Numbered from the stretch's first letter, positions 17,969 to 27,446 are shown. The stretch is DNA of 32,001 nucleotides from Fusobacterium sp. (GCF_029258315.1 NZ_JARHZE010000027.1:1-32001), one strand, 5' to 3'. Notes: generated by a model not told the origin, from the letters alone. Translations and numbers: made by a program.

Positions 17969-18008
17969 AAAAAAATCCTTACTGTAAATAATTATAGCAA
18001 GGATTTTT
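17969..18008 (-). terminator. Intrinsic terminator of the Hsp70-like gene
   Basis: Minus strand: AAAAATCCTTGCTATAA paired with TTACAGTAAGGATTTTT around a short loop, with one wobble and a T run after the stem. It begins 6 bases after the stop codon. Confidence 0.88.
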
Positions 18009-18013
18009 GTTCT

Positions 18014-19912
18014 CTAAAAAATTAATATCTCTACATCTTGAGCTAATTTTTCTAACTTATTATTTAATTCCTTTGAAATATTTTCAGATAATTCAAAGGT
18101 AAAATTATTTTCAGATTTTTCTAACTCTTCCATTATTGATATACTTAATTTTTCTTTTGTTTTTTCAGAAAGGAATATATCTTTTCTTACAAGTTTTCTT
18201 AAAAGTATTGGAATAGATTTTTTTATAAAAAGATGTTTTGTCCTATTAAATCCAATAAGTCCAGCTATTATTCCTATTATAGCTCCTCCTAAAAATCCAA
18301 GTGGACCAGTGGCTATTAATGCTGTTCCACTACCACCACAAAGCATTCCCATTAAAATAGCAATTATTAAAGAAATTATTCCATTTATTATATTCTCTCC
18401 TTGAAGATTACTTATGGAAAAATTAATATTATGTAAATCCGTTCTCATATTTATAGATAAAAGGTTCATTTCCTCTCTTGGAATCATATATCTGTCACAA
18501 ATCTCATCAATAGGAATTTGTAATTTATCACATAAACTCACTGACCAATCGATAATGGATTTTTCTAAAAGAGGTCTTATTTTTTCAGGAACTAGTATAT
18601 CTTTTATTCTTTCTAAAAGAATACTATTCATCTCTTCTATTGTATCAATCTTTCCTTTTTTCCAAAGAACAATATTTGGTAAAATTCCCTCAGTTATCAC
18701 ATATTCTGTTAACTTTTCTACAAGTGGATAGATCAACTCTTTTATTTGGTTATCAACATTTTCTTTAACAACTCCACTTTTAATAAAATTTTTAACTTCT
18801 CCTCTAAACTCTCTAAGTCTTTCATCTATAATTCCAGAATAAGCTAAACCTTTTCCAATAGAAAATTCTGGTTCTTCAGAATTAACTATTATTGCATTTG
18901 GAAATGAAAACTTACACTGCTCCTTAAAGAACTTCATTCTTGAAGCTCCACCTGTTAATATTAAAAGTTTTGGTGGATTATCTTTAGTAACTTTTGCTGC
19001 CTCATATAGTGAATATTGTATTCCCTCTACAAAAGATTTACCATTCAATTCTTTTATTGGTTTATTTATTATATTTCTTATAATCTCTTCACTAGCTTTT
19101 ATAGAAAGATTTTGTACCCCATCATAATATAAAGAAACTATTTCCTCACAAAATGAATTTTTATATAATTCCTCATTTGTAAAATATTTTTCCTTAACCT
19201 TTCTCGAAACAAGTTGAGCATAACAACGCCAACCATAACTTTCAGTAAATATCTCATTTATTTTTTCAGAAGAATCACTATTTTTTATAGCCTCCTGCAA
19301 TAAATACTCATCTATTAAACCACTACCTAGGTTATTGTTTCCAAAAACCCCAATCCCTGTTTCCTTACCATTTACAATATATGCAAAATCTAAAGTTGAT
19401 GATCCAATATCTACAACTAAAACACTCTCTTTCAAAAGTTCTGGATTTACCCTTATATTTTTAGCCTCTCTAGCATATAAAAAAGCAGCTCTTGATTCTG
19501 ATATAACCCTAACATTTGGTATATTAGCTTTTACTAATAAATTTTTATATCTTTCTCTCATTGCTAAAGTCCAACCTGCTGGACAACCAACTGTTATTTG
19601 AATATCTTCTCCTATATCAAGATCTTTTAATTTTCTAACAACTCCCTTTACAAAAAGAATTATATCTTTTTCAGCAATTTCTGAATTTTCAGAGAAACGA
19701 CTTTTAAATCTAACTCTTAAAGAATTTTTATCCCCTAGAGATATAGCCTGTTCTCCTATTAAAATATTATCCTCTCCATCAACAGCCACTGCTGAAATAA
19801 AACTTCTTTTATCATCAAGGGATAAAATTATTGGCTCTATATCTTTACTAGCAGATGAGATTTGGGCAACTGTACTTTCTCCATCTCCTAAATCAAAACC
19901 TATATATTTCAT
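18014..19912 (-). CDS. Divergent Hsp70-like (actin-fold) ATPase with a glycine-rich membrane segment
   Basis: A 632-residue protein. Residues 1-~370 are an Hsp70/actin-type ATPase: phosphate-1 loop GFDLGDGESTVA (DnaK has GIDLGTTNS), TVGCPAGW, phosphate-2 VVDIGSSTLDFA and adenosine motif LILTGGASRM. ~370-505 is helical and unlike the DnaK substrate-binding domain. 508-555 is a Gly-rich hydrophobic hairpin-like stretch (GMLCGGSGTALIATGPLGFL then GAIIGIIAGLIGF), followed by a basic-to-acidic amphipathic tail. It is therefore probably membrane-associated. It follows a two-TM gene by 12 bases with AGGAGGGAG between, so they form an operon. Substrate and role are unknown; it is not a second DnaK, because the C-terminal half is unrelated. 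Anything beyond that would be guesswork. Confidence 0.85.
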   Translation of the reverse strand: MKYIGFDLGDGESTVAQISSASKDIEPIILSLDDKRSFISAVAVDGEDNILIGEQAISLGDKNSLRVRFKSRFSENSEIAEKDIILFVKGVVRKLKDLDIGEDIQITVGCPAGWTLAMRERYKNLLVKANIPNVRVISESRAAFLYAREAKNIRVNPELLKESVLVVDIGSSTLDFAYIVNGKETGIGVFGNNNLGSGLIDEYLLQEAIKNSDSSEKINEIFTESYGWRCYAQLVSRKVKEKYFTNEELYKNSFCEEIVSLYYDGVQNLSIKASEEIIRNIINKPIKELNGKSFVEGIQYSLYEAAKVTKDNPPKLLILTGGASRMKFFKEQCKFSFPNAIIVNSEEPEFSIGKGLAYSGIIDERLREFRGEVKNFIKSGVVKENVDNQIKELIYPLVEKLTEYVITEGILPNIVLWKKGKIDTIEEMNSILLERIKDILVPEKIRPLLEKSIIDWSVSLCDKLQIPIDEICDRYMIPREEMNLLSINMRTDLHNINFSISNLQGENIINGIISLIIAILMGMLCGGSGTALIATGPLGFLGGAIIGIIAGLIGFNRTKHLFIKKSIPILLRKLVRKDIFLSEKTKEKLSISIMEELEKSENNFTFELSENISKELNNKLEKLAQDVEILIF

Positions 19913-19924
19913 TTCTCCCTCCTT

Positions 19925-20782
19925 TTAATTTATTTTCTTTATTGCTACCCCTCTTACAAATACTTTATTACTATCTTTTTCTATAAAAGCTGATTTTATA
20001 GTCATTGTTGAATTTTTTGAAGGTAGTATATCAAAATATTTTTCTGTTTCCTTTGAATACTCTATCTTTTCTATATTATTTGACAAAAGAATATTCTCTA
20101 TCTCTTTATTTACAATAGGTACAATTACTTTATTATCTGTTTTTTCAATCTCATCAAATTTTTGAAAAACTTCAAGAATATTTTTATCAAGATTGCTCTC
20201 TTTTTTATTTTCCAATCCATTTAATATGGTTAACTCTTCTATATATCTATCTAGAGCCTCCATATTTCTATCCATAAATTCCATTATTTTATCTATATTT
20301 AAATTTATCTCAGTTTTTTGTACTGTTTCTACTATCTTCGAATCTTCCCTATATTTTTTTAAAATAAGCAACAATATTAAAATTTCGCTGACAAGTCCAG
20401 CTATCCCTACACCTATCATAATATAATAATTTAATTTTATTCCTTGAGAAAAACTATACCAGAGTGAATAAAATAAAACACAGTGCATTAAAGTTAAAAA
20501 AACTATATTTCCTTTTTGCTTATACACCTTAATATTTTCTTCTGACCATATTCTAACACTTCCTAGGGTATTATAAATATTAAAATTTTCTTTTAAAATT
20601 GTGAAAAGAATTCCTATCTGTTGACGAAGTTTAGAATTTTTTTCCTCTGACATAACATTATGCTGTATATTTTCTATTTTTTGTACCAAAATATTTTTTA
20701 TATCTTGAACTGTTTTATTTTCTGCTGATATTTCTTTTTTTGTTTCCTCTTTTAGCTCTCTCCATTTATCTACTGCCTTCAT
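19925..20782 (-). CDS. Two-TM membrane protein, partner of the Hsp70-like ATPase
   Basis: A 285-residue protein I do not recognise. N-terminal ~90 residues are charged and coiled-coil-like (KWRELKEETKKEIS, QKIENIQHNVMSEEK). Two membrane helices follow at ~94-112 (IVFLTLMHCVLFYSLWYSF) and ~118-141, with a short loop, putting both ends on the same, probably cytoplasmic, side. Then comes another helical segment (INLNIDKIMEFMDRNMEALDRYIEEL), and a C-terminal ~60-residue strand-rich part ending KVFVRGVAIKK. That layout (long helices, then small beta domain) resembles GrpE, the nucleotide exchange factor of Hsp70, but this is weak. GGAGGTG precedes the ATG. It lies upstream of the Hsp70-like gene, and I see no clear promoter in the 49 bases after the smpB terminator. 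Confidence 0.78.
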   Translation of the reverse strand: MKAVDKWRELKEETKKEISAENKTVQDIKNILVQKIENIQHNVMSEEKNSKLRQQIGILFTILKENFNIYNTLGSVRIWSEENIKVYKQKGNIVFLTLMHCVLFYSLWYSFSQGIKLNYYIMIGVGIAGLVSEILILLLILKKYREDSKIVETVQKTEINLNIDKIMEFMDRNMEALDRYIEELTILNGLENKKESNLDKNILEVFQKFDEIEKTDNKVIVPIVNKEIENILLSNNIEKIEYSKETEKYFDILPSKNSTMTIKSAFIEKDSNKVFVRGVAIKKIN

Positions 20783-20831: not shown

Positions 20832-20861
20832 AAAAAAGGAAATCCTTAAATAAGGATTTCC
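20832..20861 (-). terminator. Intrinsic terminator of smpB
   Basis: GGAAATCCTTA and TAAGGATTTCC form a perfect stem with a very short loop, followed on the minus strand by TTTTTT. It begins 6 bases after smpB. Confidence 0.92.
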
Positions 20862-20867
20862 CTGATA

Positions 20868-26268: not shown

Positions 26269-27426
26269 TTATTTAAATAAATCCTTCAATCTATCTAAAA
26301 AACTTTTATTCATTTTATAATTTTTATCTTTTAAACTTTCATCAAATTTTTTCAATAATTCTATTTGAGTATCATTTAAATTAGTAGGAACTTCAATAAC
26401 TATTTTTACAAGTTGATCTCCAGCTCCATAAGCTCTAGGGTTATTTATTCCCTCTCCTCTCAATTTAAATACTTTTCCATTCTGAGTTCCTGCTGGTATT
26501 TTTATAGCTTTTTTACCATTTAATGTAGGGATCTCTACTTCTCCACCAAGAGCAGCTTTTGCATAAGTTATAGGTACTTCACAAATTATATTTTCTCCAT
26601 CTCTCACAAAGAAGTCGTGATCTTTAACGTGGAAAAAGATATATAAATCTCCATCTTCTCCACCTTCAGCACTTGCATCTCCCATTCCATGGATTCTTAA
26701 TCTTTGACCATCATGAATTCCTACTGGTATTTTTATTTTTTTGCTGATTGTTTCTCTTTCTAAACCTGTTCCACCACATTTTTTACATTTTGTTTCAGGA
26801 ATTTTTCCTTTTCCTTTACATTTATCACATTCCTCTACACTTTTAAAGTTTCCAAGCATAGTTCTTTGGATTTTTTCTATTCTACCAGATCCACCACATT
26901 TGTCACAAGTTTTCATCTTGCTTCCTGGTTCAGCACCTGTACCATTACAAGTTTTACACTTTCCTCTTCTAGTATATTTTATTTCTTTTTCTCCACCTTT
27001 AGCTACTTCTTCTAGAGTGATTGTCACATCAACCCTTAAGTCAGCACCTGGTTCTGGTCCTCTTTGTTGAGCTCCACCAAATCCTCCAAAGCCACCATTT
27101 CCACCAAAGAATGATGAGAAAATATCTTCAAATCCACTTCCAGAGAATCCTTCAAATCCTCCACCATATCCGCCACCTGCTCCATTTTCAAAAGCAGCAT
27201 GACCAAATCTATCGTATTTTGATCTTTTATCTGCGTCAGATAAAACTTGATAAGCTTCGTTTATCTCTTTAAACTTATCTTCAGCTTCTTTCTTTTCGCT
27301 CTCACTTGCATTACTAAATCTATCAGGGTGGTATTTCATAGCTAATTTTCTATAAGCTTTTTTTATTTCTGCTTCAGAAGCTGTTTTTTCTACACCTAAA
27401 AGATCATAATAATCTTTCTTTGCCAT
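26269..27426 (-). CDS. dnaJ: Chaperone DnaJ (Hsp40)
   Basis: A 385-residue full-length type I J protein. Order: J domain (~1-70) with YHPDRF, a glycine/phenylalanine-rich region ([20 protein letters not shown]), four CxxCxGxG repeats forming two zinc sites (first [10 protein letters not shown]), and the C-terminal client-binding domain and dimer tail. It delivers unfolded proteins to DnaK and triggers its ATPase. The ORF track start is an upstream TTG four codons earlier inside the GGAGG binding site; the ATG at [12 protein letters not shown] is the standard start. It follows an epimerase-like gene by 20 bases. Confidence 0.98.
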
Positions 27427-27446
27427 TTTTTCCTCCAAAATTTATC

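Follow-up and report, generated by a model that had tools for sequence, protein, structure and literature searches.

Hsp70 proteins are familiar as soluble chaperones that bind peptides. In this work we ask what the Hsp70 cycle does in a pair of adjacent genes in which an ATPase keeps all catalytic residues of the Hsp70 motor domain, carries a predicted membrane arm in place of the gripping domain, and is encoded next to a protein with two predicted membrane helices of its own. The pair lies in a 32,001-nucleotide stretch of DNA from Fusobacterium sp. (the window), which also encodes canonical grpE and dnaK and a dnaJ-like ORF, as the original prediction, made from the sequence alone, had noticed; that prediction had inferred that the pair is a second machine serving another client. 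The dnaJ-like ORF (26269–27438) is listed with a TTG start, and the sequence suggests that its true start lies four codons downstream.

Genetic organization of the locus

Both genes lie on the minus strand, as do all features of the two proteins given below. The first (19925–20782) encodes the two-TM partner protein of 285 aa, and the second (18014–19912; ORF call and Foldseek) encodes the Hsp70-like ATPase of 632 aa. These co-directional ORFs are parted by a 12-base gap (19913–19924), a strong Shine-Dalgarno sequence is present at both starts (TGGAGGTG and AAAGGAGGGAG), and the pair is flanked by smpB and gpmI (G000 contig 27). A strong terminator hairpin (20836–20863, minus strand; z -4.2) is located between smpB and the pair, upstream of the latter, and another, also strong (about 17971–18008, no strand assigned; z -5.1), closes the pair beyond the second gene. 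The spacing of the genes and their placement between two terminators, both read from the sequence in the original prediction, were confirmed, and the terminators on both sides support its view of the pair as a self-contained two-gene unit. A promoter-like site (20823–20794) lies ahead of the pair, in a region whose promoter matches are not above the shuffle frequency, and the G+C content of the pair does not differ from that of the window (27% vs. 28%). When compared within the genus, both genes of the pair gave dN/dS values of 0.14–0.31; therefore, both are maintained by purifying selection.

The nucleotide-binding domain of the ATPase

We built AF2 models of the ATPase and of the partner, each from a four-sequence alignment. 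The model of the ATPase has a mean pLDDT of 67, with values mostly of 60–90 in residues 1–363 (18824–19912), which the model, Foldseek and the alignment assign to an Hsp70-type nucleotide-binding domain (NBD). Searching the PDB with this model returned 798 matches, 420 of them at E ≤ 0.001 (best E 3e-12, probability 1.00), and the best 50 matches listed were all Hsp70/DnaK NBD structures, so that the ATP-binding fold is retained in the predicted structure. The three Hsp70/actin nucleotide motifs that had been pointed out from the sequence (GFDLGDGEST, VVDIGSSTLDFA and LTGGASRM) are all present, and all ten of the DnaK-shared motif residues that we checked (D7, K70, E139, D168, G170, T173, D175, K240, G321 and G322) are invariant in 22 of 22 aligned relatives and identical in the window's own DnaK. 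Comparison thus establishes both the Hsp70 NBD and its intact active site. In DnaK from E. coli, the residues that correspond to K70, E139, D168 and T173 are K70, E171, D194 and T199, and on the strength of this equivalence ATP hydrolysis by the protein is expected.

The domain is nonetheless set apart from DnaK at the level of family models: the window ATPase misses the family cut-off of DnaK TIGR02350 (23 bits vs. 822.55) and has no match to the PF00012 profile, whose cut-off is cleared by one relative (46.3 vs. 20.6). Nearly all family members have DGES or HGET, not TTNS, at the phosphate-1 loop, and no curated family model in the libraries searched names this arrangement.

These searches also bear on the idea that the ATPase forms a membrane-anchored actin-like filament with a segregation or cytoskeletal role, as ParM, MreB and FtsA do. 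Weak profile matches to ParM, MreB and FtsA, an MreB match in the PDB and a phage partition family point that way, but the best 50 structural matches are all Hsp70, with no ParM or MreB among them, and we regard this explanation as very improbable. An identification of the ATPase as ParM or MreB was rejected, with the profile matches below cut-off and the structure search giving Hsp70.

A predicted membrane arm in the C-terminal half

Past about residue 351–363 the ATPase model is all-helical, with no beta-sandwich. A helical region (residues 364–475; 18488–18823) replaces the linker and the substrate-binding beta-domain in the model and alignment, and is followed by a glycine-rich, paddle-like putative membrane hairpin (residues 508–555; 18248–18391), conserved among relatives, with hydrophobic segments at 508–526 and 537–555 by hydropathy. 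The C-terminal helices come last (18017–18244), the final 14 residues (KLEKLAQDVEILIF) being identical in four members of the genus. The alignment of the ATPase with DnaK contains no counterpart of the DnaK interdomain linker. The claim that the C-terminal half is unlike that of any DnaK therefore holds as far as the model and alignment go: it appears helical, lacks the linker and the substrate-binding beta-domain, and carries a predicted membrane hairpin instead. By the same hydropathy scoring, the window's DnaK and GrpE have zero membrane segments, and both proteins of the pair are predicted to attach to the membrane through their hairpins.

Could the pair be a membrane-tied Hsp70 machine that folds or extracts membrane proteins, that is, a chaperone for envelope or membrane-protein quality control? 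The Hsp70 fold with its active-site residues, a GrpE-like partner (see below) and the predicted membrane anchoring are consistent with this. It is the absence of the substrate-binding beta-domain and the interdomain linker, together with the lack of any recognised dedicated J-protein gene beside the pair, that makes us consider such a chaperone distinctly unlikely.

A different comparison is with dynamins. LeoA, LeoB and LeoC are bacterial dynamins, and the paddle of LeoA is glycine rich (PMC4159319). The C-terminal halves of 6 of the 12 sequences scanned matched a model of the dynamin-like LeoBC, the arm matches among relatives reaching E 2.3e-11 (the best) and 1.8e-6 for LeoBC, 1.4e-8 for LeoA and 2.3e-7 for LeoB, all in the stretch after the dynamin GTPase domain. 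When the arm was aligned with LeoBC by hhalign, the probability was 96.7 (P 4e-10; controls: reversed 1.8e-4, 2-TM 3e-4). A profile of six dynamin C-termini had family members as its top six non-training matches among 434 frames. The window ATPase itself had no LeoBC match and no PADLOC hit, and it scored only E 0.016 with the dynamin C-terminal profile; the arm profile found nothing, and so no dynamin, among PDB sequences. Once the hydrophobic stretches were masked, the arm-dynamin signal dropped to P 7e-4 to 9e-4 (reversed: 0.08–0.32), with most ranks at background. Nearly all of the profile signal therefore comes from the membrane hairpin. Homology of the whole arm to dynamins was accordingly rejected as a candidate, its strong unmasked scores notwithstanding; at the level of architecture and hairpin the profiles point to a real resemblance, and we make no claim of whole-arm homology.

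These data form the basis of one explanation, an ATP-driven, dynamin-like remodeller in which an Hsp70 NBD replaces the dynamin GTPase domain on an arm of the neck/trunk/paddle type, and in which the pair would tether, bend or repair membrane, for instance against phage lysis. The Leo matches in relatives, an hhalign score above the controls, the family members at the top of the dynamin profile search and the glycine-rich LeoA paddle argue for it, as do the reports that bacterial dynamins usually come as gene pairs (PMC6104087) and that DynA delays phage lysis (PMC8844932). Against it stand the drop on masking, the poor score of the window ATPase and the failure to find a PDB dynamin by sequence. 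Taking these together, we judge the remodeller in this specific form unlikely.

The partner protein and its probable GrpE-like tail

The partner begins with helices (residues 3–75; 20558–20776) predicted to be cytosolic and containing an LRQQ-G motif conserved in closer relatives. Its two hydrophobic segments, at 93–111 and 123–141, form a predicted membrane hairpin (20360–20506; hydropathy, with low AF2 confidence in this part), and helices lie on both sides of them by AF2 and hydropathy, in agreement with the two membrane helices and helical arms described in the original prediction. A long helix (163–192) and two short ones (200–215 and 222–234) follow (20081–20296), and the protein ends in a six-strand domain (237–284; 19931–20074) that AF2, Foldseek and profiles mark as a probable GrpE-like beta-domain. 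In the model this tail, predicted to be cytosolic, therefore has one long helix ahead of two short ones and then six strands, which is the order of elements in GrpE, and its family motif is LF..LPS...T...PA[LIV]...[RK]G. The mean pLDDT of the partner model is only 59; block means in the last 55 residues are about 75–89, and those of the six-strand domain about 78–89.

The likeness of the tail to the GrpE beta-domain was noticed from the sequence before any model. In the Foldseek search, rank 1 of 350,542 PDB chains for the partner model was the GrpE of Thermus thermophilus (3a6m; E 0.41, probability 0.30). Column-shuffled GrpE profiles equalled the real score in 1 of 300 (global) and 6 of 300 (local) trials, and further column-shuffle tests of GrpE against the partner gave 0/250, 4/250 and 6/500; the alignment used for the first two of these included spurious upstream frames (L113 and L115) and was replaced for the third. 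By hhalign, the partner matched GrpE with P 0.002–0.05. A partner profile ranked GrpE proteins high among 758 open frames (rank-test p 4e-12, a value inflated by the kinship of the GrpE proteins); the reverse search with a GrpE profile does not place partners high. With PF01025 (GrpE), neither the partner in the window nor its relatives gave a match of E ≤ 1, and the partner profile found nothing among PDB sequences. Each of the GrpE tests, by Foldseek or hhalign, falls short of significance when taken alone; on balance, we consider it probable that the tail of the partner is GrpE-like.

Distribution and gene neighborhoods

The pair is present in 4 of the 7 genomes of the window's genus and in 4 of the 98 genomes of its phylum, all four in that one genus, where it occupies two sites: gpmI-smpB (G000 and G001) and yvcK-like-cobU-like (G003 and G005). 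A clean empty site in the genus could not be shown, the surroundings of smpB differing between species. In G001 a 476-aa ORF with no Pfam match above cut-off sits between the pair and smpB (L011:10509–11939).

Outside the phylum, Candidatus Limiplasma stercoravium (Bacillota) carries a relative of the ATPase with 38% identity over the full length, as well as a second copy. The pair was found in 12 of 386 genomes of the order of Limiplasma (Clostridia), in 2 of 391 of its class and in 2 of 399 from the phylum that includes G260, these frequencies being estimates from evenly drawn subsets. It is also present on the conjugative plasmid2 of the cyanobacterium Calothrix brevissima NIES-22 and on two IMG/VR contigs labelled viral (L022 and L023); phage records yielded no relative of the pair. 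Two distant matches from a simple protein search in 60 relatives (L005 and L006) were plain DnaK and were rejected.

Co-occurrence of the two genes had been set beforehand as a test of the original prediction. Comparison of the loci revealed a partner gene upstream of the Hsp70-like gene at every locus examined, with one small ORF in between at L023 and with the partner gene cut by the contig end at the second Limiplasma copy (L018). The annotated partner of Calothrix stops early (L015:7009–7992, AP018209.1), and its conserved tail goes on in another frame within the 177 bases that precede the Hsp70-like gene; this gene is either broken or hit by a sequence error.

On the two viral-labelled contigs the pair lies within a larger gene set (L022:3177–11499 and L023:2047–11475) that encodes either an EF-Tu-like GTPase or a protein with EF-Tu domain 2, as well as an ATPase of the HerA/DUF87 type and a putative metallopeptidase with an HEGRHA motif. 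Repeats of the type EDEQEYL..EEGEIS are present in the set, and neighbours there carry a repeat with a match to the candidate-defence family PDC-S48. The second Limiplasma copy is followed by a gene for a GmrSD-type endonuclease and a Sel1-repeat gene (L018:3996–5999 and L018:2425–3336). The neighbours of the pair in the window, as in G001, G003 and G005, are housekeeping genes, with no defence island.

A conflict or defence role of the pair is plausible in this light. Its specific form would be an anti-phage or other conflict module, in which the two-TM partner is the effector that perturbs the membrane and the ATPase serves as its sensor or threshold switch. For such a module speak the rare and patchy occurrence of the pair, which is missing from 3 of the 7 genus members and sits at two sites in the other four, the copy on a conjugative plasmid, the HerA-type ATPase, EF-Tu-like, GmrSD and PDC-S48 genes nearby, and the HSP70 with GrpE known from conflict systems (Kaur et al., 2020, PMC7159879). 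However, neither of the window proteins scores above noise with any defence model, and the housekeeping neighbours in the genus likewise count against it; we hold this module to be a possible but tentative explanation. The same rarity is too great for a general housekeeping role, a further point against the quality-control chaperone considered above.

We also observed other Hsp70 sets. Three Clostridia loci (L071, L074 and L075) carry a separate second set, consisting of a DnaK-like protein, a TPR protein and a J-domain/TPR protein, with a very divergent GrpE in two of them; this set lies outside the present family. At L072:4016–8828, an Hsp70 of 521 aa and a short GrpE are encoded beside a protein kinase and an integrase gene, an arrangement that looks conflict-type.

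Proposed function of the pair

The explanation that we prefer, and to which we would give an even chance, is that the ATPase is a switch of the Hsp70 type, anchored in the membrane together with a dedicated partner, and that the two probably remodel or move membrane or assemble a membrane complex. As the Hsp70 domain binds and hydrolyses ATP, it would shift the helical arm, which the glycine-rich hairpin is predicted to insert in the membrane. The partner, which a predicted hairpin of its own would keep in that membrane, may offer its GrpE-like tail to the ATPase and serve as a nucleotide-exchange factor, so that an exchange factor is seemingly fixed in the same membrane as the ATPase. The output would most likely be membrane movement or remodelling or the assembly of a membrane-bound complex and not classical peptide folding, a peptide-binding chaperone role being unlikely because the substrate-binding beta-domain is absent. 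The Hsp70 motor, which also serves in chaperones and filaments, would then have a third use, one that resembles the use dynamins make of GTP. The rarity of the pair, its patchy spread and its company elsewhere (a HerA-type ATPase, an EF-Tu-like protein, a GmrSD endonuclease and a plasmid) point to an accessory role in stress or conflict.

A stronger claim would be that the pair represents a membrane machine of a new class, with an Hsp70 ATPase that is controlled by a GrpE-like exchange factor bound to the membrane and that drives a dynamin-like arm inserted there, making it an ATP-powered counterpart of bacterial dynamins. We think this unlikely. With two genes, a presence in several phyla and easy expression, the pair makes the question of whether the Hsp70 cycle moves membrane directly testable. 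Four points go beyond the original prediction: a tail that is probably GrpE-like, the occurrence in other phyla, the settings that are mobile or involve several genes, and an arm that resembles bacterial dynamin-like proteins.

Comparison with known systems

The original prediction knew of no characterised system with this layout, and our search of libraries and papers, a scope outside which most subscription journals and preprints lay, turned up none. The literature covered on Hsp70s with a role in defence, on DnaK anchored in membranes and on combinations of Hsp70 with dynamin contained no matching system, and the pair as a whole had no confident match to a known one.

With DnaK-GrpE (PF00012, PF01025) the pair shares an Hsp70 NBD whose catalytic residues are conserved, the adjacency of the genes and, in the model of the partner tail, the order of elements of GrpE. 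It differs in having neither the linker nor the substrate-binding beta-domain, in the predicted membrane anchoring of both proteins, in a GrpE profile match that is not significant, and in DGES/HGET instead of TTNS at phosphate-1. LeoABC and Eleos, the latter described as a dynamin-like defence system (PMC11811056), resemble the pair in consisting of two adjacent genes and in the order of NTPase, helices, glycine-rich membrane hairpin and helices. The ATPase of the pair is, in contrast, an Hsp70 and not a GTPase, the partner is no NTPase, and the likeness is mostly in the hairpin; where a dynamin has a GTPase domain with G1–G4 motifs, the N-terminal domain here is an Hsp70 NBD. ParM, MreB and FtsA are likewise ATPases of the actin/Hsp70 superfamily, FtsA being membrane-tied, whereas the structure search with our ATPase returns Hsp70 NBDs first. 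The pair therefore resembles Hsp70-GrpE in its motor and perhaps dynamin in its arm, and it lacks a defining feature of each, namely the substrate-binding domain and the GTPase domain.

Closer in setting are the GAP1-N2 DO-GTPase conflict systems, which contain an extra HSP70 and GrpE, with some HSP70 domains lacking the peptide-binding domain. Those systems, in contrast, occur in linkage with genes for DO-GTPase, GAP1 and FNIII/DnaJ, and the available portion of the report describes no two-TM partner (PMC7159879). No such genes were recognised among the neighbours of the window pair or its relatives, in annotation to which no GAP1 or DO-GTPase model was applied. CnuD of the CoCoNuT systems is also an Hsp70-like protein in a defence system, made up of NBD/SBD units and HEAT repeats beside McrB/McrC homologues and with partly degenerate motifs (PMC11090510), whereas the present pair has no recognised McrB/McrC, invariant catalytic residues and a predicted membrane hairpin. 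The HSP70-GrpE pairs of the GAP1-N2 systems and CoCoNuT CnuD are the nearest described relatives in setting.
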